IMG/VR virus record: IMGVR_UViG_3300047562_000283
Span: 1-20,738 of that record
Length of the DNA stretch: 20,738 nucleotides
Source: a virus
Direction: 5' to 3' (one strand)
Part shown: one piece after another, positions 4,654 to 20,405 of the stretch
Layout: each line of letters starts with the position of its first letter
How positions within the stretch are numbered: position 1 is the stretch's first letter
Program-made: the position numbers and the translations under genes
The notes under the pieces: model-generated
What the model was told of the DNA's origin: nothing
Seen by the model: the letters and a program-made list of their open reading frames with translations, nothing else
Database searches by the model: none

Positions 4654-5541
4654 ATGGCGTGGCCTGTAATTGGTGCTGTATTAGGCCTTGGAGCAAGCGT
4701 GGCTGGCGCTGTTGCTCAAAATCAACAAACTAGTCAGCAACGTGCTGATGTTGATCGTCAATTGGATCAGCAGTTTGCACAAGATAAAAAGGTCTATGAG
4801 TATAACTGGGAACAGTCCCTCCGTGAATATGAGTACCTTCTTGAAGGTATTAATATCAAACGAGCTGAAGAGGAGTCTGTTGGTCAGCTCAAAGATCAGT
4901 TAGCTATTGATCAATATAATTTCAATAAGGCTAGTCAAGATTTCACATTCCTGAATGACCTTCGTCAGTTTACTGAATCTGAAAAGATCTACGGTAAACA
5001 GCTAAGCTTCAATCAAATTGCAGCTCAGCAAGCAGCTAGTGCTGAACGAGATAAGCTTCGTGAAACACTAATTGCCTCATCCTTTGAGAACCAAGATATG
5101 GTTGTAGAACTCCTTCAACAAGAAGGTGCTCTGCAAGCTCGTGGTGTTTCTGGTAGAAGCGTAGGTCGACAATTACAGGGTGCTATGGCCGCGTTCGGTA
5201 GGAACCAGGCTGTGTTAGCTGAAAGTCTTGTTAGTGCTCGTCGACAGACTGGTAAAAATCTTGAGCGTATCGATATTGAGAAATATGGTGCCGACATTGC
5301 TGCTGATGCTAATCGTATGCTGATGCCCATGAAGGGTCCAGATCTTCCTGTTCCCTATCGTACACCTAGAGCTACATTCCAAGATCCATTGGCACCTCAA
5401 CGTGGCCCAGAACCTATACGTGGTGTCAATACAGCAACACGAGCAAGTGGCCTTGGTATCGCTGCTACTGGACTTGCTGCAACTATTAATGCTGGCAATC
5501 AGATTTATAACTTCTATAACCCCAAAAGTCCTATTATCTAA
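4654..5541 (+). CDS. Internal virion protein (T7 gp14-like)
   Basis: This 295-aa protein is in the position of T7 gp14 (196 aa), the outer-membrane part of the ejected core complex. Residues 3-21 (WPVIGAVLGLGASVAGAVA) form a hydrophobic Gly/Ala-rich helix. Residues about 22-150 are a Gln/Glu/Lys-rich, probably coiled-coil region. Residues about 155-200 hold the family-like stretch GVSGRSVGRQLQGAMAAFGR. A second Gly/Ala-rich apolar segment lies near the C-terminus (about 265-282). The protein would be packaged in the head core and ejected to make a channel in the outer membrane; this comes from T7 knowledge. The start is fixed by the perfect SD. It is about 100 residues longer than in T7, which is usual for cyanophage homologues. 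Confidence 0.85.
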   Translation: MAWPVIGAVLGLGASVAGAVAQNQQTSQQRADVDRQLDQQFAQDKKVYEYNWEQSLREYEYLLEGINIKRAEEESVGQLKDQLAIDQYNFNKASQDFTFLNDLRQFTESEKIYGKQLSFNQIAAQQAASAERDKLRETLIASSFENQDMVVELLQQEGALQARGVSGRSVGRQLQGAMAAFGRNQAVLAESLVSARRQTGKNLERIDIEKYGADIAADANRMLMPMKGPDLPVPYRTPRATFQDPLAPQRGPEPIRGVNTATRASGLGIAATGLAATINAGNQIYNFYNPKSPII

Positions 5542-5557
5542 TCTCGGAGCATACTAA

Positions 5558-8500
5558 ATGGAGCCAAGGAAATACAGAGGGTACGCCCAAAGTACTGGCT
5601 TTAACCCAATTCGTGTTCCTGATACTGTTAGTCGAATTGCTCGTCAAGGAGATCGTACTCTACGGAGTATGCAAGCTGTCCAAGACCAGCTCGCTAGCAA
5701 TCAGTCGAATTACATCAGCGGTCTGGAACGGAAACAACGTGTTGAAGATCAGAACCGTGATGAAGTCTTTAATTTCAATGAGCGCCAACGTAGACGTGTC
5801 TTCGATGATGAGATGCGTGTTCTTCAACGTCAACAAGGTATCGATCCTGGAAGTCGTATTGGTGATCTAGAAGCCCTTGCTCAATTCTCCAAGACTGTTG
5901 CAGAAGTCACTGCTGACATTGGTAAGCGTCAGAGTGAAAATGCAATGTGGGATGAGTACAGCAAGACCTATGAGTTTGGTTTACCTATTGATCGGCTTGA
6001 AGCTCAGGAAGCTGGGTACCAAGCTCTTGCTGAGACTGATGAGCGTATTCAAACCGTAGCTGACCGTATGCAGGCCAATGGAGCACCTCCAGAAGCTGTT
6101 ATGTCTCTACGTAAGGTTTCCGGTTCAAGGGCCGTTGGACAGGCACGTGCGTTGGCTGAGATGGCTGCAATGCACTACGGACCGTGGCTTGAGAAGCAGT
6201 TTTCTCAGGACAATCGTACTCAAATTGAATTGAACGGTGAAACGTTCACTCCTGCTGAGGTTGCAAACGATCCTGTCAAGCGTGCTGCTGCCACCTCTGT
6301 TCTGTGGAAGAACTACCTCACTGGTAATAACCTAGTTGGTCTTAGCCCTGCTTTACTTGCTCCTGCTTTCAAGCAGATGAAGATGGCAGAGCAACAGCAA
6401 CTGGCTGAAGCTCGTACTGCCTACGCTATTGCTGGATCTGAGCAGATGCTTGATGAAGCAAAGGCGGCTGCTATCCCTGCATTCAAGACAAATCCCGGTC
6501 AAGCTTTTACCACCCTTGTTCAAAGTTATGCAAGGAGTCTTGATCAACGTGGACAACCTCTAGGGTTCACTGCTGGTCGTCAAAAGGCAATGGATTACCT
6601 GCGCCTTGCTATTGACACCAACGATGTAACACTTGAGACTCTCGATGCCATTGAGGACTTCCCAACCCCTCATCAACCAAATCGTACTTGGGGACAGTTG
6701 TATGGTCCTGAACTACGTAAGCTACGTGAAGAGGTTGAGAATAACTACATCGAGGATTCCCGTAGGCAAGATTCTGTTCTGCAACAAGATGGTAAGCGTT
6801 GGGCTGATGACGTCCTAAAGGAGATCTCTGATAACCCACAAAGTGAAGAGACGCTAAAGCGCCTCGTTAAGTACAGTCTTGATACCTTCGGTTTCGTTGA
6901 TGATCGTCTTCAGTACTACGTCAACAACTACTCAACAGAAAAGATTGAAGCCGAACGTCTGAATGATGAGTTTGAGAAGCTTGCTCAGGCTAATCGACTC
7001 ACGCTGGATATGGTCACTGATCCACGTGTTCCGTTTGCAGTACGTCAACAGTGGCAGAACATTGCTAAGCAACAGTCAGATGCCCGTGCTCAGACTGGTG
7101 ATTTCAAAGTTGCTAATGAGGCTATCGAGAATGCCATTCTTGCTGCATCACAGTACAACAGTGCAACTGGTGATCCTAAGCACTACACTATACCGCTAGC
7201 AATTGCCGAAGCGAAGGCACGCTTCAATAGCATTGTCTCCACCCTAATCCAATCAGGCAAAGCAACTCCTGATCAAGCTGCACAACAAGCTCTTCAGCAA
7301 GTTATCACTGATATTGGCGATGGAACGTCTGGTAGGTTTGAGTATAGCCGAACGGATCAAAGAGGTTTTGTTAATATCGGCTTTGATGGCTACGGTTCTA
7401 CACGTCAATCAGTTAATGACGCTACTAAGCACTTAGATGCAATCAAAGCTAAGTTTGCTGGTGGTGGCGGTGTTGCATCCCTGGATCGATTCGCACTTAT
7501 TCCCCGCAATACACTTGAGGCTATCAACAAGCAAAGAAATAGCCCGAATGTTCAACCTCCTGCTGTAGCTAACTACATTTCGGAGCTACTTGGTGGAAGG
7601 GTCAGTTCTTTTGAAGTCCTCAACCGTCAATTAGTAGCACAGGGTTTTGACCCTCTCCCTACACCTGAGCCCCTTCAGCAAGTCGAGCGTGTCATCTCTC
7701 CTGAGCTTCGTCGCTTGCTTCTGTATAAGCCCAGCCCACGGCGCTCTATGCGTGCCTATGCTGGTATTGGTAATTACAATCCAGCACTTGTTCCTAAAGG
7801 CTACGGTCAGCTTATTGCTGAAGTAGCAAGCTCTAACGGTGTTGACCCTGGGCTGTTAGCTGGCCTTGTTCAGGTGGAAAGTAATTTTAACCCTAATGCT
7901 GTCTCTCGAGCTGGCGCTACAGGCTTAGGTCAATTAATGCCTGGAACTGCGGCCGGGCTAGGTGTTCGTAATATTCGTGATCCCCGAGAAAACCTTCAAG
8001 GAGCTGCTCGTTATTTACGGCAGATGCTTGATCAGTTTGGTGGGGAGTTAACATCTGGCCTTCGTGCATACAATCAAGGACCAGATAATCAACAACGTTA
8101 TCCCAATGGTGTCTCTGATGAGGCACGTTCTTACCCAACCAAAGTTCTGCGTGCTGCAGCATCATTTGGTTTTAATCCCAACGGTGGTTCTGTGTGGCGT
8201 AATACAGCCACTATGCGCCCAAAGTTGGTGTACCGTATTGATAGTATTGGACCCACTTCAACTGGACCCCACCTTGATGTAAAGGATACTCAAGGAGGAA
8301 TGTTTGGCCGTTACGATCTTGATAAGTATATCGAGGTTGAAGTAGGAGGAAGTAGGAAGCCACTCAGTACGGTAATCACTGACGATCAGGCTGCACACCG
8401 TAGACGTGGTTCACATGGTATTGACTTTGCATATCCAAAAGGTACGCCTGTCTTCTTGAAGAATGGAGCGCAAGTCATCTCCAATTCGCCTACTGAACAT

Positions 8501-8569
8501 GGCGACAAACTGGTCATCCAATTACCTGATGGCCGTACATTCTCTTTCCTACATGGTCGTAAGGTCTAA
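5558..8569 (+). CDS. Internal virion protein (gp15-like) with lytic transglycosylase and M23-like domains
   Basis: The product is 1003 aa against 747 in T7 gp15. It lies in the gp15 position between the gp14- and gp16-like genes. Residues 1-740 are a long, charged, mostly helical region without membrane segments, as expected for a core/ejection-tube protein. Residues about 745-870 are a soluble lytic transglycosylase domain: VESNF holds the probable catalytic Glu774, followed by GATGLGQLMP (786/796-795 region) and AYNQGP (837-842). It would cleave peptidoglycan so that the ejection tube can cross the wall. Residues about 890-1003 read as an M23-like domain in permuted order: GPHLD (903-907), HGIDFA (953-958), KGTPV (961-965) and FLHG (997-1000). 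T7 carries its transglycosylase in gp16 instead. GGAG lies eight bases before the ATG. Two bases separate its stop from the next gene. Confidence 0.88.
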   Translation: MEPRKYRGYAQSTGFNPIRVPDTVSRIARQGDRTLRSMQAVQDQLASNQSNYISGLERKQRVEDQNRDEVFNFNERQRRRVFDDEMRVLQRQQGIDPGSRIGDLEALAQFSKTVAEVTADIGKRQSENAMWDEYSKTYEFGLPIDRLEAQEAGYQALAETDERIQTVADRMQANGAPPEAVMSLRKVSGSRAVGQARALAEMAAMHYGPWLEKQFSQDNRTQIELNGETFTPAEVANDPVKRAAATSVLWKNYLTGNNLVGLSPALLAPAFKQMKMAEQQQLAEARTAYAIAGSEQMLDEAKAAAIPAFKTNPGQAFTTLVQSYARSLDQRGQPLGFTAGRQKAMDYLRLAIDTNDVTLETLDAIEDFPTPHQPNRTWGQLYGPELRKLREEVENNYIEDSRRQDSVLQQDGKRWADDVLKEISDNPQSEETLKRLVKYSLDTFGFVDDRLQYYVNNYSTEKIEAERLNDEFEKLAQANRLTLDMVTDPRVPFAVRQQWQNIAKQQSDARAQTGDFKVANEAIENAILAASQYNSATGDPKHYTIPLAIAEAKARFNSIVSTLIQSGKATPDQAAQQALQQVITDIGDGTSGRFEYSRTDQRGFVNIGFDGYGSTRQSVNDATKHLDAIKAKFAGGGGVASLDRFALIPRNTLEAINKQRNSPNVQPPAVANYISELLGGRVSSFEVLNRQLVAQGFDPLPTPEPLQQVERVISPELRRLLLYKPSPRRSMRAYAGIGNYNPALVPKGYGQLIAEVASSNGVDPGLLAGLVQVESNFNPNAVSRAGATGLGQLMPGTAAGLGVRNIRDPRENLQGAARYLRQMLDQFGGELTSGLRAYNQGPDNQQRYPNGVSDEARSYPTKVLRAAASFGFNPNGGSVWRNTATMRPKLVYRIDSIGPTSTGPHLDVKDTQGGMFGRYDLDKYIEVEVGGSRKPLSTVITDDQAAHRRRGSHGIDFAYPKGTPVFLKNGAQVISNSPTEHGDKLVIQLPDGRTFSFLHGRKV

Positions 8570-8571
8570 TT

Positions 8572-11500
8572 ATGACATATAGTCCACTCAGCACTGAGTT
8601 GCATGGTACGCCTGCAGCCTCTGTTGATCCTATCGCTTTAGAACGAGCGCAAGCTCAGATCAATGAAATTAACTCCATTGAAGAGCAACGTAAACGTGAC
8701 GAAGAAGAAAAGCAAAGACAAGAAGCAGAACTAGACAAGCAAGTACAGCAGCAATCACAGCAGCAGAACTCACTTGGTCAGATGGCTGCTACCACTTTGC
8801 AACGAGGCATCGAAGTACCGACTGCTCTTGTTGGTGGTACTATTGACTTTGTAGAAGGTATTGGTCAACGTTATAACATACCGTGGTTAGAGTTTCCAGA
8901 TCAATGGGAACCACAAAACACTACCACCCTTGGTAAGGCTCTTCGTTCCATCAGTGAAGTTGCTGTCCCCACAGTTGTTCTTTCTGCTTTAACCCGTCGT
9001 GGTGTCAATGCTGGTGCCACACGTATTGCTGGTGCAGAACGTGTTGCTAATGCACCAAAGATTGCAAAGTATCTTGGTAATGCCGGCCTTGATGCTGCTT
9101 CAGGTGTGGCTGTTGATTATGTCAGCCGTCAATCTGAAGATCATAATGCCATGGGTATCCTTAAGAAGAACTTCTTCCCGTGGATACCTGACAACATTGC
9201 CACACTTGACTCTGACTCTCCTGATGTCAAGCGTGCAAAGAATGTCTATGAAGGTGTAGGCCTTGGCCTTGCTGTTGACCTTCTTGGAGCCGGTATTAAA
9301 GCTGCTAAGTCAGTCTTTAAGTCCTCTGATGGTACGACCTATATCCCTAAAGATCAGCAAGCTAAGCAGCATTTTGAAGGTCTAGCTCAACGATCTGGTC
9401 CTCCTAAGTCTGATGATCCTGCTTCGGATTATGTGATTCGTTCGGTTGATAATCGAGAGCGTGTCACTGATGAGTGGGCTGAGCAGCAGTTCGCTAAGGA
9501 TCCTGATGGTCTTCAAGGTCCACACCCTGCTGTGAACTCCCCTATGTACGACGAAACAGAGCGTGCAGTGTTGGGTGTTCGTCAAGATGCTATCCCTCAG
9601 AACCTAGTTGATGGTGCTCGTATCTATCGCAATGAAGGCACTGTCAATGGCCGTATGGCTACTGTTATGACTGAAGCAGCCCAGAAGAATGGGCTTGAAG
9701 TTGATAACCTTCAGAAGCGTACCCTTGTTCAAGATACTGTCAAAAGCATCAATGAAACTGGTGACTTCCAAGCTGTTGTAAACGGCGTCCGCATCTCTAA
9801 AAAGGAGATGATCGAAGCGGCTGATCCAATGGTTCAGCAGATCATCAATCCAAACATGGATGTCGCTGCCGTCAAGAGTCTTTTTGATGATGGTAGGTCA
9901 CTAGAAGGTATCTCGCAAACTCGTTATATCAACGACCGTCAGTATGCTGCTGCAATGAGAGCTACTAAGCAACTCATTGATCAATATATTGGTCTTGATA
10001 CAGCACGTGCTTCTGCTCGTCTCCAGACAACAATGGCTGGTGAAGTAGCTGATATTGCACAAGGTGCTCGTCTTGTATGGAATGAAGTTGACACCACCCG
10101 TCAGCAAGAAATGATTTTCGACAAGATCGAATTTCTGATGGCTGAGATGGGTATCAACAAGTATGTCTCTGGTTGGTCTCTTAACAATAAGAAGGCCTGG
10201 GATCAAGTCATGAAGGAAGGTGATCCTGCTTCAATTCAACGCTTTGCTAAAGAAGCTGAAGCTGAGATCACCCAAGCTACTGCTGAGCGTATTGCTAAGG
10301 CAAAGGAGTTTGTATCTAGCCTCCAAGAGATCAAAGCTAGTAATCCTGAATTCCTTAAGCCCCTTATTGAAGCCTATGAGCTTACCGGTGGCAAGGTTGA
10401 CACGATTGATCGTCTTAATAAGTGGTTCCAGAACTCAACAGGTTTCTGGAAGAAAGCCTTCCTTGATGGTGAACCTGAAGTCCCCAGTGTCGTTGTACAG
10501 GGCCTCTGGGGCACGTTGTATAACTCGGTACTTAGCTCAACCCTAACCCCCCTCAAAGCCTTCACTTCGAACCTCACAGCTCTATTTGCTAAGCCTGTTT
10601 CAATCCTTGGTGGATCGATCATCGGTGGTGACAAGGAGACCTTCCAACGTTCGTTGGTACAACTAGGTAATCTTGGTGAAACCCTCCAGAAGGCAACTCA
10701 ACACTTCGGCTTTATCCTTAAGAAGTCCATCGAGAACCCTGATGGTGTCAGCTATGCAATGCGTGAAGACGTTGCTATCAAGAATGCTGACACTCTAATG
10801 TTACTTGAAAACGTTGCTAAGGCAAAGGCAGCACAAGGTGAGATGGGACCAACAGTTGTTGTTGGTATTGCCAAAGCACTTCATGATTTCAATAACCATC
10901 CTTGGGTCAGATATAGCGCCAACCTGATGACTGCAGGTGATGGTTTTGTTCGTAGTGTCATGGCCAACTTTGAAGCTCGTGGTCGTGTTTACGATGAAAT
11001 GGCTCGTGAGACAGGTGGTGTCATTGACCACGCTGCTCTCAATAAAGCACAAGCAAAGCTCTATGCAGAGATGTTTGATGCTAACGGCATGATCACTGAT
11101 AAGGCTGTTGAACATGCTAGTCGTGAGATTGCCATGAACCTTGATTCACCTGCTGTTCAAGGTTTATCGGCACTTCTTAACCGTTACCCTGCTTTTCGTC
11201 CATTTGTGATGTTCCCACGGACATCAATGAATGTTCTTAGCTTTGCCCATAAGCATAGTCCCTTGGCTCTTGCATTTGGTGAATCCAATCGCATTCTGAA
11301 TGCAAAGACTACTGATGAAATCAACGAGATTATGAAGTCTCGTGGAATCACTGACTTCTCCAAGCAACAGTGGGATCAAGTCGTTGCTGAAACCAAAGGG
11401 CGCATTGCTCTTGGCACTATTACCACAATGACTGCTTTCATGCTTTATTTGAGCGGTAGTCTGAGTGGCAACGGTCCATACGATAAAGAAGCACGGAATG

Positions 11501-12465
11501 CATGGACAAAGGCCGGCTGGCAACCTCGTTCTATCCGTAACCCTGTTACTGGTGAATGGCACAGCTATGACTCCTTTGAACCATTCTCTACCTACCTTGC
11601 TCTTGTCGCTGATATTGGTGACAACGTAGGTCATCTTGGCTCTGCAACAACTGAAGATCTCTCTAGGAAGCTTGCATTCGCCTTCTCTATGAACATCACT
11701 AACAAATCATTCCTGCAGGGCCTCACCCCTCTGAATGATATGTTGTCTGGTGATGAAGCAGGTTTCCAACGCTTCCTTGCCTCACAAGCTAATAACTTGG
11801 TTCCGTATGCAAGTCTCCGTAATCAACTTGGTCAGTTGATGTCCCCTGGCCTGCGTGAAGTTGATAATGAGTTTCAACAGCATGTTCGTAACCGCAATGC
11901 TTGGGTTGATGCATTCTCTCCAGAGACTGCTCTCCCTTATGCTCGTGACTTCATTGATGGCTCAAGGATTCGTGATTACGATCCGATGACCCGTATCCTC
12001 AATACTGTACTCCCGTTTAAAACAAACCCATCTACTGAACCTTATCGTCAGTGGTTGATCAAGACAGGCTTTGAAGCCATGCCTGTGTTGAAGAAGAGTA
12101 CAGGTGGTATTGATTACACGCCTAGAGAACGTGAGCTGATTGCATCCTACATGGGTCAATATGGTGATCTCCCCAGAAAGCTCACAAAGTTGATGAATAG
12201 AAAAGATCTTCAACGTGATCTTGAATTCTATACTAATCAACGTCGAGACTTTAATGTTTCCAGCGATCAGTTGGACCTCGCTAAGAGTCGTGTCCATGCA
12301 GCTATCCGTAAGGAATTCACTGCTGCTAAGAATCGTGCTGAAGCTGTCATGTATGCAGAGTATCCCAAACTCCGTCGTGATGCTGCTATTAAGTCTGTCA
12401 AGGAGAAAGCACAGCAACGAGGTGACTACGATTCAGTTCAACGTCTTCTTGCAATACCTAAGTAA
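8572..12465 (+). CDS. Internal virion protein (T7 gp16-like ejection protein)
   Basis: The product is 1297 aa, near T7 gp16 (1318 aa), and follows the gp15-like gene by two bases. T7 gp16 spans the inner membrane and pulls in the first part of the genome; the same role is inferred here. Residues about 22-66 are a Glu/Gln/Lys-rich coiled coil. Apolar Gly/Ala helices occur near 80-95, 125-135 and 225-245. A long apolar segment lies near 644-690 (GLWGTLYNSVLSSTLTPL onward), with another near 950-965 (TTMTAFMLYLSGSLSG). The segment HPWVRYSANLMTAGDGFVRS near 771-790 looks like the conserved core of cyanophage homologues. No transglycosylase motif is seen at its N-terminus, unlike T7, matching the transfer of that activity to the preceding protein. 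No clear SD is present. Confidence 0.85.
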   Translation: MTYSPLSTELHGTPAASVDPIALERAQAQINEINSIEEQRKRDEEEKQRQEAELDKQVQQQSQQQNSLGQMAATTLQRGIEVPTALVGGTIDFVEGIGQRYNIPWLEFPDQWEPQNTTTLGKALRSISEVAVPTVVLSALTRRGVNAGATRIAGAERVANAPKIAKYLGNAGLDAASGVAVDYVSRQSEDHNAMGILKKNFFPWIPDNIATLDSDSPDVKRAKNVYEGVGLGLAVDLLGAGIKAAKSVFKSSDGTTYIPKDQQAKQHFEGLAQRSGPPKSDDPASDYVIRSVDNRERVTDEWAEQQFAKDPDGLQGPHPAVNSPMYDETERAVLGVRQDAIPQNLVDGARIYRNEGTVNGRMATVMTEAAQKNGLEVDNLQKRTLVQDTVKSINETGDFQAVVNGVRISKKEMIEAADPMVQQIINPNMDVAAVKSLFDDGRSLEGISQTRYINDRQYAAAMRATKQLIDQYIGLDTARASARLQTTMAGEVADIAQGARLVWNEVDTTRQQEMIFDKIEFLMAEMGINKYVSGWSLNNKKAWDQVMKEGDPASIQRFAKEAEAEITQATAERIAKAKEFVSSLQEIKASNPEFLKPLIEAYELTGGKVDTIDRLNKWFQNSTGFWKKAFLDGEPEVPSVVVQGLWGTLYNSVLSSTLTPLKAFTSNLTALFAKPVSILGGSIIGGDKETFQRSLVQLGNLGETLQKATQHFGFILKKSIENPDGVSYAMREDVAIKNADTLMLLENVAKAKAAQGEMGPTVVVGIAKALHDFNNHPWVRYSANLMTAGDGFVRSVMANFEARGRVYDEMARETGGVIDHAALNKAQAKLYAEMFDANGMITDKAVEHASREIAMNLDSPAVQGLSALLNRYPAFRPFVMFPRTSMNVLSFAHKHSPLALAFGESNRILNAKTTDEINEIMKSRGITDFSKQQWDQVVAETKGRIALGTITTMTAFMLYLSGSLSGNGPYDKEARNAWTKAGWQPRSIRNPVTGEWHSYDSFEPFSTYLALVADIGDNVGHLGSATTEDLSRKLAFAFSMNITNKSFLQGLTPLNDMLSGDEAGFQRFLASQANNLVPYASLRNQLGQLMSPGLREVDNEFQQHVRNRNAWVDAFSPETALPYARDFIDGSRIRDYDPMTRILNTVLPFKTNPSTEPYRQWLIKTGFEAMPVLKKSTGGIDYTPRERELIASYMGQYGDLPRKLTKLMNRKDLQRDLEFYTNQRRDFNVSSDQLDLAKSRVHAAIRKEFTAAKNRAEAVMYAEYPKLRRDAAIKSVKEKAQQRGDYDSVQRLLAIPK

Positions 12466-12474
12466 TAGGCAATC

Positions 12475-13740
12475 ATGGCTATCACACAGAATACCTACAC
12501 AGGGGACGGATCTACCGTCCTCTTTTCTTTTACCTTTCCATATTTAGAGACTACTGATATCAAGGTGACACTTGACGGTAGTGTTACAACTGAATACTCC
12601 TTAGCCAACGCCACTACTATTGAATTTGATTCAGCACCTGCCAATGGTGTTGCCATTCGTATTTACCGAGAGACTGATGATGCGACTTTGGCAGCTACGT
12701 TTTATCCAGGTTCTGCCATTCGTTCTCAAGATCTTAATGAGAACTTTACGCAAAATCTCTATGTAACGCAGGAATCAAACCGAGATGCAAGTGCTGCTAA
12801 TGTTACAGCTAACAGTGCTTTAACTGCTTCAGCGGCAGCTACCAGTACAAGTAATACTGCATTAGCTCAAAGTACTGCAGCACAAACTGCGAGTGCGACA
12901 GCAGTTTCTACGGCAAATGCAGCTACCGCTACTGCTAATACTGCTTTATCACAAGCTTCAGCAGCAGTTGCTACAGCCGATACAGCAAATGCCAACTCAA
13001 CTGCAGCGTTGAATGCAGCGGCTGAAGCGCTTGCTTATGTAATTGTTGCGAACATTGCTGCTATTCCAGGTTCACCAAATAATGGTGATGCTGTACGTGT
13101 TACAGATTCTACGGGTATTGAGAGTTTCACACCCCTTAGTGGTGTTCCTGTTGGATTTGTTGGTGATTCTGGTCTAACGGCTGAGATTTATTATAGTACT
13201 CCATCAAGTAGTTGGGTGTGGGTACGTTATTACGCTGGTGATCCTGAGAATCGGTATGCTTCGGCTGCTGATATGACACAAGCACAATCCGATATTCTTG
13301 GTCTTGATAGCCAGAAGTTGGATGTAACGACAGCAGCAAGCACGTATCAGACACAGGCTGGGATGAGTAGTTATGTGCCTACGTCTGATATTGACGTTAC
13401 AGTCCAAAGCTACGACGCAGATACGGTTAAGCAAGACGTTCTACCGACGTTTACTGTTGCTACACGCACTACTGAACGGACTATTACAGCAGGTTCATTT
13501 GACCTTGCTACTGGTAACTTGTGGACTGTTGGAGCCATTACTGTTCCTAACCCCACCAATGCTGCTGCTGGTCAAACTGGAGCTATTCGGATTACTGCTG
13601 GTCCTGTGGTGTGGTCTTCTAACTTCAAGTTCCCTGGTGGTACTGCACCGACGATTGCTACGTTCCCAGCGATCATTCCGTATTACGTACAGGATAGCTC
13701 AACGATCCTGATGGGTAATGTTGTTGAGGGTATTGCGTGA
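12475..13740 (+). CDS. Tail fibre protein (T7 gp17-type N-terminus)
   Basis: The product is 421 aa. Residues 1-100 match the virion-attachment domain of T7-type fibres: MAITQNTYTGDGSTVLFSFT, the FPYLETTDIKVTLDG strand pair and the ending RSQDLNENFTQNLY. Residues 101-190 are a low-complexity Ala/Thr/Ser/Asn coiled coil (repeated TANTA, ASAA type units), the trimeric shaft. Residues 200-300 are beta-rich with the YQTQAGMSSYVPTSDIDVTV and VQSYDADTVKQDV pieces common in cyanophage fibres. The C-terminal 100 residues form a beta cap ending MGNVVEGIA. It is shorter than T7 gp17 (553 aa) and lacks an evident receptor knob, suggesting that it acts as an adaptor for the adhesins encoded downstream. 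A terminator-like hairpin lies within codons 10-19. Its TGA shares a base with the next ATG. Confidence 0.88.
   Translation: MAITQNTYTGDGSTVLFSFTFPYLETTDIKVTLDGSVTTEYSLANATTIEFDSAPANGVAIRIYRETDDATLAATFYPGSAIRSQDLNENFTQNLYVTQESNRDASAANVTANSALTASAAATSTSNTALAQSTAAQTASATAVSTANAATATANTALSQASAAVATADTANANSTAALNAAAEALAYVIVANIAAIPGSPNNGDAVRVTDSTGIESFTPLSGVPVGFVGDSGLTAEIYYSTPSSSWVWVRYYAGDPENRYASAADMTQAQSDILGLDSQKLDVTTAASTYQTQAGMSSYVPTSDIDVTVQSYDADTVKQDVLPTFTVATRTTERTITAGSFDLATGNLWTVGAITVPNPTNAAAGQTGAIRITAGPVVWSSNFKFPGGTAPTIATFPAIIPYYVQDSSTILMGNVVEGIA
12502..12531 (+). terminator. Terminator-like hairpin inside the tail fibre gene
   Basis: GGGGACGG (12502-12509) pairs with CCGTCCTC (12515-12522), eight pairs with one G-T, around a five-base loop. 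TTTTCTTTT (12523-12531) follows directly. Loop size and the nine-base T-tract are the same as in the terminator at 1544-1571. It encodes the fibre motif GDGSTVLFSF, so protein constraint may explain it. Alternatively it may attenuate transcription into the adhesin region. Confidence 0.45.
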
Positions 13741-16583
13741 TGAATAATGGTGAACAGTTCTTTAATACATCAGCCGCTGGTGGGTACACCATCTCTAGAT
13801 CCGTCCGTTTCAACAGCAGTGACAGTGCCTACTTGTCCAGAACCCCCGCATCAGCCGGCAACCGCAAGACGTGGACCTGGGCGGGATGGGTGAAAAGGAG
13901 CGGGACTGGTCAGTTTAATGAGCTTTTTAGTGTAGGTTCAAATAACTTCGACCTTCTCTTCAACAACAACGCCATTGAGATATATGAATATGATGGTGTA
14001 AGTACGTTATGGCAGCGGACAACAACTTCGGTCTATAGAGACTTTTCTGCTTGGTACCACATAGTTCTTGCTTACGACACAACGCAAGCAACTGCCGCGA
14101 ACAGAGTCAGGTTGTACGTCAACGGGACAGAAATTACTGTATTTTCTACAAACACTAACCCAACTCAAAACAGGGATGGCTATGTCAATGACACTATTGC
14201 TCATTACAGCGGAAGGCAGGCTGCTAACAACCGTTATTTAGATGCTTATTTGGCCGACATCCACTTCATCGACGGCCAAGCGTTAGACCCCACCAGCTTC
14301 GGTGAGTTCGACGACAACGGCATCTGGAACCCGATTGAATACGCCGGCACCTACGGCACCAACGGCTTCTACCTCCCCTTCTCCGATAACAGCACCGCCG
14401 CCGCATTAGGAACGGACACCAGTGGGAATGGGAATGATTGGACGCCGAACAACCTAAGTGTATTAAGTAAAAGTGGATATACAGGACCTAAATACTCGGG
14501 GAACGGCACTTTTACTTCTGGGCAGTCGTGGATTTGGACTCCCAATTGGCACCGATGGTTTGATGGAGATTTAACAACATTCGGAGATGCCTATGCCTAC
14601 TACGGGACCTCTACTTCAACACTAAATTTCCCCACACCTATAAGTGGATCGGTTATACGTTTTTACGCTGAGAATCCTTCTCAACCGGGAACAGGCGCCG
14701 ATGTCAATGGCACAACAATGTATGTAAGGCTTAATGGTCAAGCTGCCATTGCCTTAACATTCACATCCTCTGGTACAGCTCCAAATGCCGTTGGTTGGAC
14801 AGATGCGATTTCTATACCAGGCTCAAGCTTAACTCAACTTATTGTTTACCACTCTGCTCCTGTACATAGGCACATACGGATATACGGTGTAGAGGTTGAC
14901 TCTGTACTTCTAGAGGAAGTCACACTAGCTGACGTTGACACAGACTCCCTCGTAGACGTACCCACCAACGGCACCGAGACGGATACGGGTGTTGGTGCTG
15001 AGGTGAGGGGAAACTATTGCACTTGGAATCCGTTAGACAACCAGGGGCTGACACTTACCAACGGCAACCTCGACGTTTCTTGGAATACCAATAGCTGGTA
15101 TAACGTAAAGGCGGCTATTGGAGTTAGCACCGGCAAGTGGTACTACGAATACACTGTAAATAGTGGTGCAAGTTCTCAGATTATAGGGTTATTTGCGACA
15201 ACCACTGCTTTTCCTGCCGTTGGCGGCTTTGGTTATATGACAGTTTCCGCATCGGGCTGGGGCTATCAGCTAGATGGAAATAAGTCTAATAACGGCTCAT
15301 TTACGAATACAGGTACAACAGCAGGGGCTGGCGACTTGATCATGGTTGCCTATGATATGGACGCCGCAAAGGTCTGGTTCGGAGTAAATGGTGTTTGGCT
15401 GAACAGTGGCGATCCGGTGACAGGAGCAAATGCTGCTTTCAGCAACCTTTCTGGCACTCTTGCTCCGGCTATTTCAATGTTTGGCGCACAGAGCGGCTCA
15501 TTAAATACAGGCCAACGCCCCTTTGCCTACACCGCCCCCAGCGGCTTCAAGGCACTCAATACTGCATCTTTACCCGCCCCGACGATTGAAGACCCGTCCA
15601 CGGTGATGGATGTTGCTCTTTATACGGGCAATGGCAGTACGCAGACTATTTCGGGGTTGGGGTTTAGCCCGGATTTGGTGTGGATCAAGAGCAGGAGTTC
15701 TGCTTATAGTCATGCCTTATTTGATATTGTTCGCGGAGCAACTAAGCAGCTAAGCTCGGATAACACTTCGGCAGAAGCTACCTACGTCAACTCTTTTACT
15801 GCTTTCAATTCTGATGGGTTTTCAGTCGGGTCTGATGCCATCGTTAATAATTCATCGTCAACATTTGCCGCTTGGAACTGGGACGCCGGCAGCTCCACCG
15901 TCTCCAATAACGATGGCTCCATCACTACGAGTCTGAGAGCATCGCCTTCGAGCGGATTTTCCGTGGTGAGCTGGAGCGGAGTGAATGGTTCCAATGGCAC
16001 TATCGGTCATGGCTTGGGAGTTGCCCCGCAATTTGTCATTTTAAAAAACCGTGGCACTGCCGACAACTGGCGTGTCTATCACATCAGCGTTGGTGCAACT
16101 GGTTTTCTGCAACTTGCTAGCACTGGAGCAACAGTTACCTCCGACGAGTTTCAAAATACTTCGCCAACCTCAACAGTGTTTTACCTGCGTGGCAATACGT
16201 GGAACGCCGCAAATAATAACTACGTCGCCTACTGCTTCGCCCCAGTCGCGGGCTACAGCGCGTTCGGCAGCTACACCGGCAACGGCAGCACGGATGGTCC
16301 GTTTGTTTATACCGGACACAGAAGCCGGTTCGTTCTAATCAAGAGCGCTGGCAGTGGTGATCGTTGGACGATTCAGGACACCAGTCGCAGCCCTTACAAC
16401 GCATCAACTGACACGCTCGCGCCCAACTTGAGCAACGCCGAGCTGGCCAACGCCTTCAATCTAGACATTTTGAGTAACGGCTTCAAAGTGCGGAACACGA
16501 ACAGCGGCCACAACACCAATGGAGTCACCTATATCTGGGCAAGTTTTGCTGAGAACCCCTTCCAATACGCCCGCGCACGCTAA
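13740..16583 (+). CDS. Large multidomain adhesin (LamG, discoidin-like, SPRY-like)
   Basis: The product is 947 aa from the ATG at 13740, which overlaps the fibre stop as TGATG; an in-frame GTG at 13737 is a less likely start. Residues about 18-185 form a LamG/concanavalin-like domain (SVRFNSSDSAYLSRTP, WTWAGWVKRS, RVRLYVNGTEI). Residues about 250-390 are a galactose-binding/discoidin-like module (FDGDLTTFGDAYAYYG, IRIYGVEV). Residues about 425-585 are SPRY-like (GKWYYEYTV, KVWFGVNGVW). Residues about 622-947 hold repeated modules of phage adhesin type starting ALYTGNGSTQ and FGSYTGNGST, with FSPDLVWIKS, VAPQFVILKN and SRFVLIKSAG as repeated strands. The role is probably binding of host surface glycans. 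GC content alternates between high (14270-14420, 14940-15080, 16230-16500) and lower blocks, suggesting mosaic assembly. A structural protein is certain in type; the receptor is unknown. Confidence 0.82.
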   Translation: MNNGEQFFNTSAAGGYTISRSVRFNSSDSAYLSRTPASAGNRKTWTWAGWVKRSGTGQFNELFSVGSNNFDLLFNNNAIEIYEYDGVSTLWQRTTTSVYRDFSAWYHIVLAYDTTQATAANRVRLYVNGTEITVFSTNTNPTQNRDGYVNDTIAHYSGRQAANNRYLDAYLADIHFIDGQALDPTSFGEFDDNGIWNPIEYAGTYGTNGFYLPFSDNSTAAALGTDTSGNGNDWTPNNLSVLSKSGYTGPKYSGNGTFTSGQSWIWTPNWHRWFDGDLTTFGDAYAYYGTSTSTLNFPTPISGSVIRFYAENPSQPGTGADVNGTTMYVRLNGQAAIALTFTSSGTAPNAVGWTDAISIPGSSLTQLIVYHSAPVHRHIRIYGVEVDSVLLEEVTLADVDTDSLVDVPTNGTETDTGVGAEVRGNYCTWNPLDNQGLTLTNGNLDVSWNTNSWYNVKAAIGVSTGKWYYEYTVNSGASSQIIGLFATTTAFPAVGGFGYMTVSASGWGYQLDGNKSNNGSFTNTGTTAGAGDLIMVAYDMDAAKVWFGVNGVWLNSGDPVTGANAAFSNLSGTLAPAISMFGAQSGSLNTGQRPFAYTAPSGFKALNTASLPAPTIEDPSTVMDVALYTGNGSTQTISGLGFSPDLVWIKSRSSAYSHALFDIVRGATKQLSSDNTSAEATYVNSFTAFNSDGFSVGSDAIVNNSSSTFAAWNWDAGSSTVSNNDGSITTSLRASPSSGFSVVSWSGVNGSNGTIGHGLGVAPQFVILKNRGTADNWRVYHISVGATGFLQLASTGATVTSDEFQNTSPTSTVFYLRGNTWNAANNNYVAYCFAPVAGYSAFGSYTGNGSTDGPFVYTGHRSRFVLIKSAGSGDRWTIQDTSRSPYNASTDTLAPNLSNAELANAFNLDILSNGFKVRNTNSGHNTNGVTYIWASFAENPFQYARAR

Positions 16584-17334: not shown

Positions 17335-18030
17335 ATGGAATTTCAGATTAAACCTGATGGTCTTGGCGGTGCTCTAAAGGCTACTATTATTGATTCAATC
17401 CCAGTAGATCTTGGTGCAGCTAGTGTAACCATTGATAACGTAACTCTGCCTGCTACTCTGACTGTAGATAATACAAATGCAGAGGCAGTTCCTGTAAGTG
17501 ATGCTGGTGGTACTCTTTCGATTGATGATGGTGGCTCTTCAATCACTGTTGATGGTCCGCTAACTGATGCTGAGCTACGTGCTACTGCTCTTAGTGTAAC
17601 TGGTCCTTTGACTGATACTCAACTGCGGGCAACTGCAGTTCCTGTGTCTGGACCGTTGACTGATGCTCAACTCCGTGCATCTGGTGTTGCAGTAACAGGT
17701 CCGCTGACTGATGCTCAACTTCGTGCTTCAGCCCTTACTACAACCACTACTGTACCGAGTCGTACACCTACCACTACAAGTATAGCTGGTACTGCTAGCA
17801 GCACTTTGTTGGTAGCTTCTAATGCTTCCCGTAAAGGTCTGATGGTAAGCAATATCAGCACAAGTAAGTTGTATCTCTCCTTTAGTAATCCTGCAACTGT
17901 TGCTAATTCTTTTATGGAGATGCAACCTGGAGCATTCTTGCTGTTGGATCAACAACTGATTGTAACCAATGCAATCTATGGCATTTGGACTAATGCAAAT
18001 GGTGCTTGCCAAGTAACGGAGTTCGTCTGA
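17335..18030 (+). CDS. Fibre-like protein with 16-residue tandem repeats
   Basis: The product is 231 aa. The N-terminus (1-70) is beta-rich and may anchor to the tail. Residues 74-137 are four tandem 16-residue units of the type GPLTDAQLRASGVAVT, an acidic, Leu/Arg-containing repeat seen in phage fibre and baseplate-type proteins, probably a trimeric stalk. A Thr/Ser linker (about 134-152) leads to a C-terminal beta domain of about 80 residues (ASRKGLMVSNISTSKLYLSF to ACQVTEFV) that looks like the capping domain common in cyanophage fibres. The stop overlaps the next ATG (TGATG at 18028-18032). The start has ACAATGG and no SD. The role is probably structural, in the host-recognition complex. 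Confidence 0.75.
   Translation: MEFQIKPDGLGGALKATIIDSIPVDLGAASVTIDNVTLPATLTVDNTNAEAVPVSDAGGTLSIDDGGSSITVDGPLTDAELRATALSVTGPLTDTQLRATAVPVSGPLTDAQLRASGVAVTGPLTDAQLRASALTTTTTVPSRTPTTTSIAGTASSTLLVASNASRKGLMVSNISTSKLYLSFSNPATVANSFMEMQPGAFLLLDQQLIVTNAIYGIWTNANGACQVTEFV
17554..17745 (+). repeat. Four tandem 48-bp repeats coding GPLTD units
   Basis: Four consecutive 48-bp units start at 17554, 17602, 17650 and 17698. Each encodes GPLTD(A/T)(E/Q)LRA(T/S) followed by a variable, mostly Val/Ala/Ser/Thr end. The DNA copies differ mostly at synonymous positions, so the repeat is old and held by protein selection. Confidence 0.85.
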
Positions 18031-18393: not shown

Positions 18394-18723
18394 ATGGCAT
18401 TTACTTACAAAGTACTGGGACAAAGCGCCCCAAGCGCACTGACCAACACAGACTTATACACTGTTCCCGCATCGAAATCAGCAGTGGCATCAACGCTTGC
18501 GGTTTGTAATCGTGGAGCCTCCACTTCAATTCGCGTTGCAGTAAGACCTGCAGGAGCGACGCTTGCTAATGAACATTACATCATCTACAACGATGTGCTG
18601 AATCAAAATGATTCGGTGTTTTTGACAATCGGTGTGACGATGGCAACCACTGATGTAATGACAATTTATGCGGGCACCGCAGATCTATCTTTTAGCTTGT
18701 TTGGATCGGAGATAGATGTATGA
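18394..18723 (+). CDS. Small beta-sandwich tail protein (fibre cap type)
   Basis: The product is 109 aa with the pattern MAFTYKVLGQSAP, LYTVPASKSAVASTLAVCNR, RVAVRPAGATLANEHYIIYN and a final FSLFGSEI. This layout recurs in many cyanophage and other marine phage genomes as a small stand-alone tail protein, with alternating beta strands and no helix. It probably caps or decorates a fibre. Its last four bases overlap the ATG of the LRR gene (ATGA), so it is translationally coupled with it. The family function is not established to my knowledge. Confidence 0.75.
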   Translation: MAFTYKVLGQSAPSALTNTDLYTVPASKSAVASTLAVCNRGASTSIRVAVRPAGATLANEHYIIYNDVLNQNDSVFLTIGVTMATTDVMTIYAGTADLSFSLFGSEIDV

Positions 18724-20405
18724 GCACTCGCAGGTTAAACCAATCCAGAATCGCCAGTAAGAAGTTTAAGCCTGCTGGTCTTTGGGTGCGCAATCCATCG
18801 TGGCCGACGCTTACAGAACCTGCTGCAACTGATCAAAAACTGGTTGGTCTTTATGCGGTGTTTGAAGACGTTGGCGATTCTAATGTTGCGTCAATCAATT
18901 TTAACGACACTTATACGATTGACTGGGGCGATGGAACTTCCGATGTTTCTGTTATCAATAACCAAGAGCACGTCTATTCGTTTTCTAATGCAAACTTATA
19001 CGATGCAACCGTAACGCTAACTGATTCCACAGATACCATTACACGGAATAATCACGGATATAGCAATACAGATAAGATGCGTTTTTATCGCATACAGACG
19101 ACAACAGGATTAGCTGAAGGTCGTTTGTATTATGTGATTAACGCAACGCAAAACACTTTTCAAGTGTCTGAAAACGTTGGTGGTAGTGCAGTTACACTAA
19201 CCAATGACGGATCAGCTTCACTGCTTCCATATAAAATTGCAACGATTGTAGCGGAAGCAGATGCTGGATCTACAGTCACAAGAATTGAATTAAATAGAAA
19301 ACTTGGGATATTTAATTATGACAGTGTTACTAACTGGTTGGATTTAGTTGTTGCAGCGCCTAATTGTACGAATTACAACCAAACCAACAACGTCAACCTA
19401 CCGCGTTTGATGGAAAGACTTAAGATCATAAGTCTTGCCAACACAGTAACAGATCTTGCCATCTTGGTTGATGCGCATAACGTTAGAGAGTGCGAGATTC
19501 CTCTGTTTACATACACAGGAACCAGCCTTCAAAATCGACACAGACAATGTTTCAACCTAAGAGTGGGTCCATATTATGACACCTCATCCGTCACTGATTT
19601 TAGGACTTGGTTCTCAAATTGCAATAGCTTAGAGCGAATCCCTCGGTATAACACTTCATCAGCAACCCTTACGGACAGCATGTTCCAAAACTGCTCGTCA
19701 TTGAAAACCATCCCTCAAATGGATTTTCAAAATGTCACGTCAATGAGCAGTATGTTTAATGGATGTTTTGCCCTGGAGAAACTTCCCGAATTTAACATGT
19801 CTAGCTGCACAAATGCGGCCGCCTTGTTTGCTAATTGCCTCAATTTGCGTGAAGTGCCAGCTTTAGACGTATCAAGCGTTACCAACGCTCTAGCCATGTT
19901 TTCCAGTTGCAACTCCCTTCAATACTTGCCACCGTTAGATTTTTCTAGCGCTACAACCCTACAAAGCGCATTCCAGAGCTGCATTTCTCTTCGCGCTGTA
20001 ACAATAACCACGTCTTCAGCATTGACTAATTGCAACAATATGTTTAATAATTGCGTGTTAATGACACATCCACCAGTATTCGATACATCAGCGGTAACAA
20101 ACATTAGCGGCATGTTTAGGAACTGTAGTTCACTAACAGAAATACCAGACTTTGATTTCAGCAGCGTTACAACAGTTGATGGCACTACATTCACCAGCAA
20201 TCGCTCACTACGTCGCATCCGCATGACAGGTCTTGGCGTCAGTTTTTCCGTAGCAAACTGCTCGCTTTCATCCGATGCACTTAACGAGATTTACACCAAT
20301 CTCCCAACAGTAACCAGCAAGACCATCACAGTGTCTGGAAACTATGGTGTTTCAGGCGATGACCCAACCATTGCCACCGCAAAAGGCTGGACCGTATCTG
20401 GCTAA
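18720..20405 (+). CDS. BspA/DUF285-type leucine-rich-repeat adhesin with PKD-like domain
   Basis: The product is 561 aa. Residues about 40-95 begin a PKD-like fold (YTIDWGDGTSDV, EHVYSF). Residues about 100-168 are a module of the type NNHGYSNTDKMRFY, LYYVINATQNTFQVS and GGSAVTLTNDG, apparently inserted into the PKD fold, which resumes with PYKIATIVAEAD and TRIELNRK. Residues about 296-492 are eight 24-residue BspA/DUF285-like leucine-rich repeats (MFxNCxSLxxIPxxDxSSVT), with Cys at 301, 325, 349, 373, 397, 421, 445 and 469. The C-terminus caps the solenoid. Such repeats are known in bacterial surface proteins and in some phage tail proteins, so host binding is likely. The start overlaps the previous stop (ATGA). 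No signal peptide or anchor is present, which fits a virion protein rather than a cell-surface protein. Confidence 0.82.
   Translation: MSTRRLNQSRIASKKFKPAGLWVRNPSWPTLTEPAATDQKLVGLYAVFEDVGDSNVASINFNDTYTIDWGDGTSDVSVINNQEHVYSFSNANLYDATVTLTDSTDTITRNNHGYSNTDKMRFYRIQTTTGLAEGRLYYVINATQNTFQVSENVGGSAVTLTNDGSASLLPYKIATIVAEADAGSTVTRIELNRKLGIFNYDSVTNWLDLVVAAPNCTNYNQTNNVNLPRLMERLKIISLANTVTDLAILVDAHNVRECEIPLFTYTGTSLQNRHRQCFNLRVGPYYDTSSVTDFRTWFSNCNSLERIPRYNTSSATLTDSMFQNCSSLKTIPQMDFQNVTSMSSMFNGCFALEKLPEFNMSSCTNAAALFANCLNLREVPALDVSSVTNALAMFSSCNSLQYLPPLDFSSATTLQSAFQSCISLRAVTITTSSALTNCNNMFNNCVLMTHPPVFDTSAVTNISGMFRNCSSLTEIPDFDFSSVTTVDGTTFTSNRSLRRIRMTGLGVSFSVANCSLSSDALNEIYTNLPTVTSKTITVSGNYGVSGDDPTIATAKGWTVSG
19620..20195 (+). 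repeat. Eight tandem 72-bp LRR units
   Basis: Eight units of exactly 72 bp (24 residues) can be aligned on a Cys codon with no insertion or deletion. DNA identity between units is low while the protein pattern is kept. Confidence 0.8.

Follow-up and report, generated by a model that had tools for sequence, protein, structure and literature searches.

Sequence evidence for a circularly permuted M23/LytM-like domain with altered metal ligands in a cyanopodovirus ejection protein

The gp15-like ejection protein encoded in the viral DNA studied here ends in a domain that, judging by its sequence, is almost certainly a permuted homologue of M23 (LytM) peptidases. Taken as a whole, the observations are best explained, and with good probability, by a circularly permuted M23/LytM domain that belongs to a lineage with HxD in place of HxH, underwent a further Ser/His change in cyanophages and would play the part of a wall-opening peptidase. 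The permutation was proposed in a first-pass annotation of the same DNA; reversed-order profile matches, a rotation scan, column shuffles and a homologous permuted branch now support it.

The gp15-like protein and its neighbours

The analysed stretch of 20,738 nucleotides (hereafter the window; IMG/VR virus record IMGVR_UViG_3300047562_000283, positions 1 to 20,738, one strand) carries the structural genes of a T7-like cyanopodovirus. They include genes for the major capsid protein, tube, nozzle, gp14-like, gp15-like (1003 aa) and gp16-like (1297 aa) proteins as well as tail fibre genes. The features surrounding the domain are as follows.

4654..5541, + strand: gp14-like internal virion protein, upstream neighbour; weak match to Pfam T7_gp14 (E 0.0095), below the cut-off
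5558..8569, + strand: gp15-like internal virion (ejection) protein, carrier of the domain; ORF of 1003 aa, full-length match to phrog_24152 (E 8e-95)
7811..8113, + strand: SLT lytic transglycosylase domain, residues 752-852 of the gp15-like protein; Pfam PF01464 (E 3.6e-24)
8572..12465, + strand: gp16-like internal virion protein, downstream neighbour; ORF; the P60 and S-CBP1 genes at this position carry the annotation internal virion protein

The gp15-like protein is similar to its counterparts in Synechococcus phages P60, S-CBP1 and DSL-LC07, and its gene matches P60 gp33 and S-CBP1 gp35 in position and neighbours. Like T7 gp15, it is encoded after the nozzle gene, between the gp14-like and gp16-like genes. 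The gp14-like gene is placed as in P60 and DSL-LC07, and a Pfam scan of the gp16-like protein returned no match.

Three further ORFs of the window deserve a mention. The first (13737-16583; 948 aa), in which a SPRY domain and DUF7483 (E 4e-109) were recognised, probably encodes a tail fibre or adhesin. The second, of 231 aa (17335-18030), contains a repeated unit about 17 residues long (V-GPLTDAQLRA). The third (18720-20405; 561 aa) contains four DUF285 (leucine-rich-repeat-like) stretches, which is unusual in a phage tail region.

Layout of the domain

The domain and its motifs map to the window as follows.

8207..8566, + strand: whole permuted M23-like domain, residues 884-1003; from IMG/VR relatives, alignment A2 (61 sequences) and the AlphaFold2 model (pLDDT 90.4)
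8219..8338, + strand: residues 888-927, counterpart of the C-terminal M23 half (GQxIGxxG...STGPHLHFE...xDPxxYL), placed first in this domain; second hhalign alignment
8270..8284, + strand: HLDVK, residues 905-909; His905 corresponds to the first His of HxH, and Asp907 replaces the second, a zinc ligand
8354..8554, + strand: residues 933-999, counterpart of the N-terminal M23 half (ITSxFGxR...HxGxD...YAH), placed last in this domain; first hhalign alignment, Pfam M23 profile 3-51
8396..8398, + strand: His947, invariant, at the position of the canonical FGxR Arg; candidate replacement ligand
8411..8425, + strand: S-H-G-I-D, residues 952-956; Ser952 at the position of the HxGxD His, Asp956 at that of the canonical Asp ligand, His953 variable
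8552..8554, + strand: His999 of FLHG, equivalent by hhalign to the catalytic His of the YAH strand; the protein stops four residues later

The outer limits of the first module (888-927) are our own reading, the aligned part being 893-909. Within the protein, STGPHLDVK starts at residue 901, HRRRGSHGID at 947, GTPVF at 962 and SFLHG at 996. The first-pass annotation had placed TGPHLDVK (902-909) before HGID, and both the sequence and the coordinates of this arrangement were correct, as was its remark that the protein ends just after FLHG, since the stop follows RKV. In the relatives scored for FLHG, the domain also closes the gp15-like protein, which ends 2-5 residues past the motif.

Reversed order of the M23 halves

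The likeness to M23 is not fortuitous: M23 was the commonest Pfam family found among the relatives of the domain (31 of 61). As a single sequence, the window domain scores 16.5 bits against a cut-off of 28.7, and the match covers only the first M23 half, in a 48-residue stretch near the C-terminus. We attribute this low score to the permutation. As a consequence, PHROG gives the protein no function, and databases label its relatives as tape-measure or hypothetical proteins. Matches to Ntox37 (E 0.02-0.2) were below the Pfam cut-off and confined to a few members, so they were ignored.

Homology to PF01551, for which the Pfam gathering score is not reached, was found by hhalign. A profile of 61 relatives was compared with a canonical M23 profile built from 85 domains, taken from phages and bacterial genomes; the outcome was a pair of alignments that follow each other in the opposite order to M23. 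In the first, slice residues 60-126 align with M23 columns 17-90 (probability 92, E 5e-7); in the second, slice residues 20-36 (893-909 of the protein) align with columns 110-125. The hhalign probability against M23 was 92-96 for the cyanophage group and 98-99 for the permuted relatives described below. The canonical order, HxGxD before HxH, is reversed in all relatives.

A comparison with normal and permuted M23 profiles had been envisaged in the first-pass annotation; once the M23 profile was rotated, the Viterbi score rose from 43.1 to 56.9, peaking only if the breakpoint lies at about M23 columns 90-114, around the loop that connects the YAH strand with the GQxIG strand. Column shuffles reached at most 50.95 for the first half of the query and 52.68 for the moved half of the template (n=300 each), against 56.9. 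The HxH-type half alone scored 30.1 against M23, with a shuffle maximum of 21.2 (n=300), and in the cyanophage group this match lies mainly on the six columns of STGPHL. These sequence comparisons place the new ends in the YAH-GQxIG loop, so that the domain starts with the HxH half and finishes with the HxGxD-YAH half.

A second permuted branch in tape-measure proteins

A weak match led us to a tail protein of Moraxella phage Mcat23, in which the motifs read ...LVGISGNSGTSTGAHLDIR...KITSDFGLRKAP...DHRGIDYA...LLHL. The same permuted order was observed at the C-terminus of ORF75 of Acinetobacter phage Ab105-2phi, near the N-terminus of a protein of Synechococcus phage S-EIVl annotated as 'peptidase M23 family', and at the start of a 208-aa protein in G194, a genome of the phylum around a Pseudanabaena genome. 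In IMG/VR, relatives of this tape-measure-type profile are encoded on more than 300 stretches.

Seven representatives of the tape-measure type scored 82.1 against the linear M23 profile and 116.7 against the rotated one (E 1e-20), with a shuffle maximum of 90.8. Their first half alone reached 45.8 (shuffle maximum 21.6), and the reversed second match spans M23 columns 105-135 (31 columns) with a probability of 94-96. Three models, Pfam M23 (E 1e-5), NCBIfam MepM and PHROG 7767, hit the Moraxella domain in two separate segments apiece. The best PDB match of the tape-measure-type profile (A4) is the M23 protein 3slu (E 1e-10), and this alignment, too, consists of two segments, the order of which is reversed.

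A4 aligns with the cyanophage profile (A2) from end to end, without any change of order (probability 97.5, E 6.7e-12), which makes the permutation of the window domain secure at the level of sequence. The profiles thus point to one permuted lineage common to the cyanophage domain and siphophage tape-measure proteins. Its pattern within a single domain, STGxHLD...FGx[RH]...xxGxD...LH, is present in the window domain. The two branches share the order, HxD and full-length homology; they differ in that the Acinetobacter/Moraxella domains keep the HxGxD His and FGxR Arg and belong to siphophage tape-measure rather than podovirus ejection proteins, where they are annotated only as tape measure or tail.

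The Moraxella and Acinetobacter tape-measure proteins carry permuted M23 mid-protein or at the C-terminus (L313, 661-5049; L318, 964-3396; L321-L403). Short stand-alone proteins that begin with it are encoded at L316 (1225-1851, minus strand; 208 aa) and L319 (2980-3726; 249 aa, from S-EIVl). The PHROG tape-measure families 3519, 1506 and 10030 match the permuted domain in part.

Conservation and the putative metal site

IMG/VR scans with three different queries returned 52, 124 and 99 relatives, from which 89 distinct domain sequences were aligned. They are the basis of the conservation counts, which, like the ligand counts, are HMM-based; alignment A2 comprises 61 of them, 36-88% identical to the window domain. 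Positions invariant in 89/89 include H905, L906, D907, V908, K909, H947, R950, S952, G954, D956, G962, F997 and H999. Judging from this alignment, H905, D907, H947, S952, D956 and H999 are the invariant ligand candidates of the cyanophage group.

Of 128 columns, 26 are near-invariant, and these include all five positions (5/5) that match M23 ligands and catalytic histidines (905, 907, 952, 956 and 999; hypergeometric P 2.5e-4). Pairwise dN/dS between the window and its two closest relatives is 0.07 and 0.04, and the range given for dN/dS is 0.04-0.09.

The altered ligand set reported earlier, with PHLD for PHxH, proved general: HLD occurs in 89/89 relatives. HxD replaces HxH in all permuted members, that is, 89/89 in the cyanophage group and 7/7 representatives of the other branch. 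By comparison, 33/33 canonical M23 control domains have HxH, and these were found mostly through their HxGxD half, so there was little selection for HxH. The cyanophage branch has two further replacements, Ser for the HxGxD His and His for the FGxR Arg (89/89 each); both motifs are intact in the tape-measure branch. Since HxD is common to both branches and Ser952/His947 occur in the cyanophage branch only, the ligand change looks stepwise in the alignments.

The first-pass annotation also described a His three rather than four residues before the Asp. This spacing holds for His953 and Asp956, but His953 is not a shifted ligand. This position has His in 69 of the 89 distinct relatives, Tyr in 10, Phe in 9 and Asn in one, which rules it out as a displaced HxGxD ligand; the residue four before Asp956 is Ser952. 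The expectation that the histidines and aspartates would be conserved holds for H905, D907, H947, D956 and H999 and fails for His953. Of the three canonical zinc ligands, the cyanophage domain keeps only Asp956 unchanged, and the His of the YAH strand is retained as His999 (89/89). D907 and H947 are putative metal ligands.

Predicted structure

The AlphaFold2 model computed with alignment A2 has a pLDDT of 90.4, a pTM of 0.82 and eleven elements. This alignment-based model was used throughout, the single-sequence version reaching a pLDDT of only 63. In our reading of the strands, the modelled elements follow one another as expected of an M23 domain with its chain opened behind the YAH strand.

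A Foldseek search of the PDB with the model gave nothing at E <0.6 and no M23 among the top 50, and VIA-align, run on the Foldseek shortlist, gave no M23 chain. Its best matches were LecB-type lectin-like sandwiches with Z up to 4.6, which we ascribe to a widespread sandwich arrangement; matches this weak carry little meaning. Both programs work in chain order, so their outcome neither supports nor refutes a permuted LytM fold in the model; this is the main gap in the analysis.

Neighbouring wall hydrolases and canonical counterparts

The SLT domain lies just upstream of the permuted M23-like domain as its glycan-cutting partner. Among relatives, this upstream hydrolase is exchanged between SLT, Glucosaminidase and Phage_lysozyme2 (the last, in P60, just under its cut-off), and the last domain stays constant. 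One of the three kinds was recognised in the window and in 6/7 relatives scanned; in the remaining one, L125, the domain scan recognised no upstream glycan hydrolase. The exchange is seen between window positions 7811-8113 and L006, L049, L055, L064, L160 and L171.

Canonical M23 domains occur in comparable places. Synechococcus phage S-SRP01 has the same architecture, Glucosaminidase followed by a C-terminal M23, but its M23 is canonical. Mastigocladus phage CHP58 (with a weak SLT match) and Anabaena phage A-4L (PDB 9k2v chain E by sequence match) have a canonical M23 within the protein at the same gene position. All three M23 domains show the ordinary order and intact ligands, whereas the window domain is swapped and altered. 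Compared with M23/LytM (PF01551) in general, the window domain retains both profile halves, the HxGxD Asp, the first His of HxH and the YAH-strand His, but its halves are swapped, HxD and a Ser replace HxH and the HxGxD His, and it scores below the Pfam cut-off.

Permutation is also known in another cell-wall peptidase superfamily, where the LRAT-like and YaeF groups are circularly permuted NlpC/P60 (PMC6403190), but these have an unrelated cysteine peptidase fold.

Possible function and alternative explanations

In T7 and its relatives, the peptidoglycan hydrolase is part of the ejection proteins, and its location may shift to the gp15 homologue, K1E being an example (PMC8954989). Because of this placement, the neighbouring glycan hydrolases and the canonical M23 at the same slot, the best reading of the two domains is a wall-opening pair. 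After adsorption, the gp15-like protein would be ejected into the periplasm, where the SLT, glucosaminidase or tail lysozyme domain would cut glycan strands and the permuted M23 domain would then cut peptide cross-links. The metal ligands might be Asp956 and Asp907, possibly joined by His947, and the catalytic residues would be His905 and His999. Together, a glycan cutter and a peptide cutter could open the wall for the DNA tunnel.

The first-pass annotation had left the choice between a metal-altered peptidase and a peptidoglycan-binding remnant. The former is favoured because all active-site-equivalent positions are invariant and dN/dS is low. Most likely, the domain is a putative virion-borne peptidoglycan endopeptidase with an altered metal site, and we lean, if only slightly, towards predicting an active metal-dependent peptidase.

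The main rival is a permuted M23 fold that does not cut but binds peptidoglycan or regulates, positioning the neighbouring glycan hydrolase on the wall. EnvC and NlpD offer a model for it: they are degenerate, M23-related LytM domains in the ordinary order that have lost their zinc ligands and act without cutting. The window domain, too, has lost zinc ligands, with substitutions at two of the three (Ser for the HxGxD His, HxD for HxH), and the adjoining glycan hydrolase is swapped freely while the permuted domain stays. Such a role is nevertheless rather unlikely. The replacing residues, in contrast to EnvC and NlpD, are invariant and do not drift (89/89), both catalytic-type histidines are kept along with an invariant His at the FGxR position, HxGxD is intact in the tape-measure-type members, and in S-SRP01 the slot is filled by a canonical M23 with intact ligands.

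Two other explanations concern the permutation itself. A true M23 N-terminal half (933-999) could follow a beta segment of other origin whose likeness to STGPHLHFE is coincidental, as might be argued from the six matching columns in the window's group and from the sequential fold search, which listed no M23. This is very unlikely, given that 0/300 shuffles reached the observed score, that the tape-measure members match M23 well beyond those columns and that homology between the two families extends from end to end without a change of order. Circular permutations usually arise through tandem duplication, and the domain could accordingly consist of tandem M23 remains, the end of one and the start of the next, with their partners elsewhere. 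Alternatively, since ejection proteins are multimeric (PMC8954989), the site could be completed by domain swapping between ring subunits. We give little credence to either variant: the gp15-like protein contains no other M23 half and Pfam found none in ten other window ORFs, the short L316 and L319 proteins carry one permuted copy each, and the window domain was modelled with confidence as a single unit.

On the preferred reading of a permuted peptidase, the cyanopodovirus ejection and siphophage tape-measure proteins could represent an undescribed permuted M23 lineage of virion-carried wall peptidases, although we advance this tentatively. Its metal site would contain Asp: His/Asp/Asp in the tape-measure branch and Asp/Asp with a relocated His in the cyanophage branch. 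A full-text literature search found no report of a permuted M23, but most subscription journals were outside its coverage, so novelty is not proven.

M23 peptidases are among the commonest wall-cutting enzymes of bacteria and phages. The invariant HxD and Ser/His changes offer a clean, testable case of a rewired metal site, for which the canonical M23 in the same slot of S-SRP01 is a natural control.

Distribution

A scan of genome contigs with the cyanophage profile gave no cellular relative. A search with the A2 profile through the phylum to which a Pseudanabaena genome belongs (386 genomes) found one true permuted match, the G194 protein encoded at L316. In BFVD, the domain model matches P60 and, more weakly, H6WFX6, a virion protein of the cyanomyovirus S-TIM5 (E 1.2e-4). 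Judging by the latter match, the permuted domain may also occur in myoviruses.
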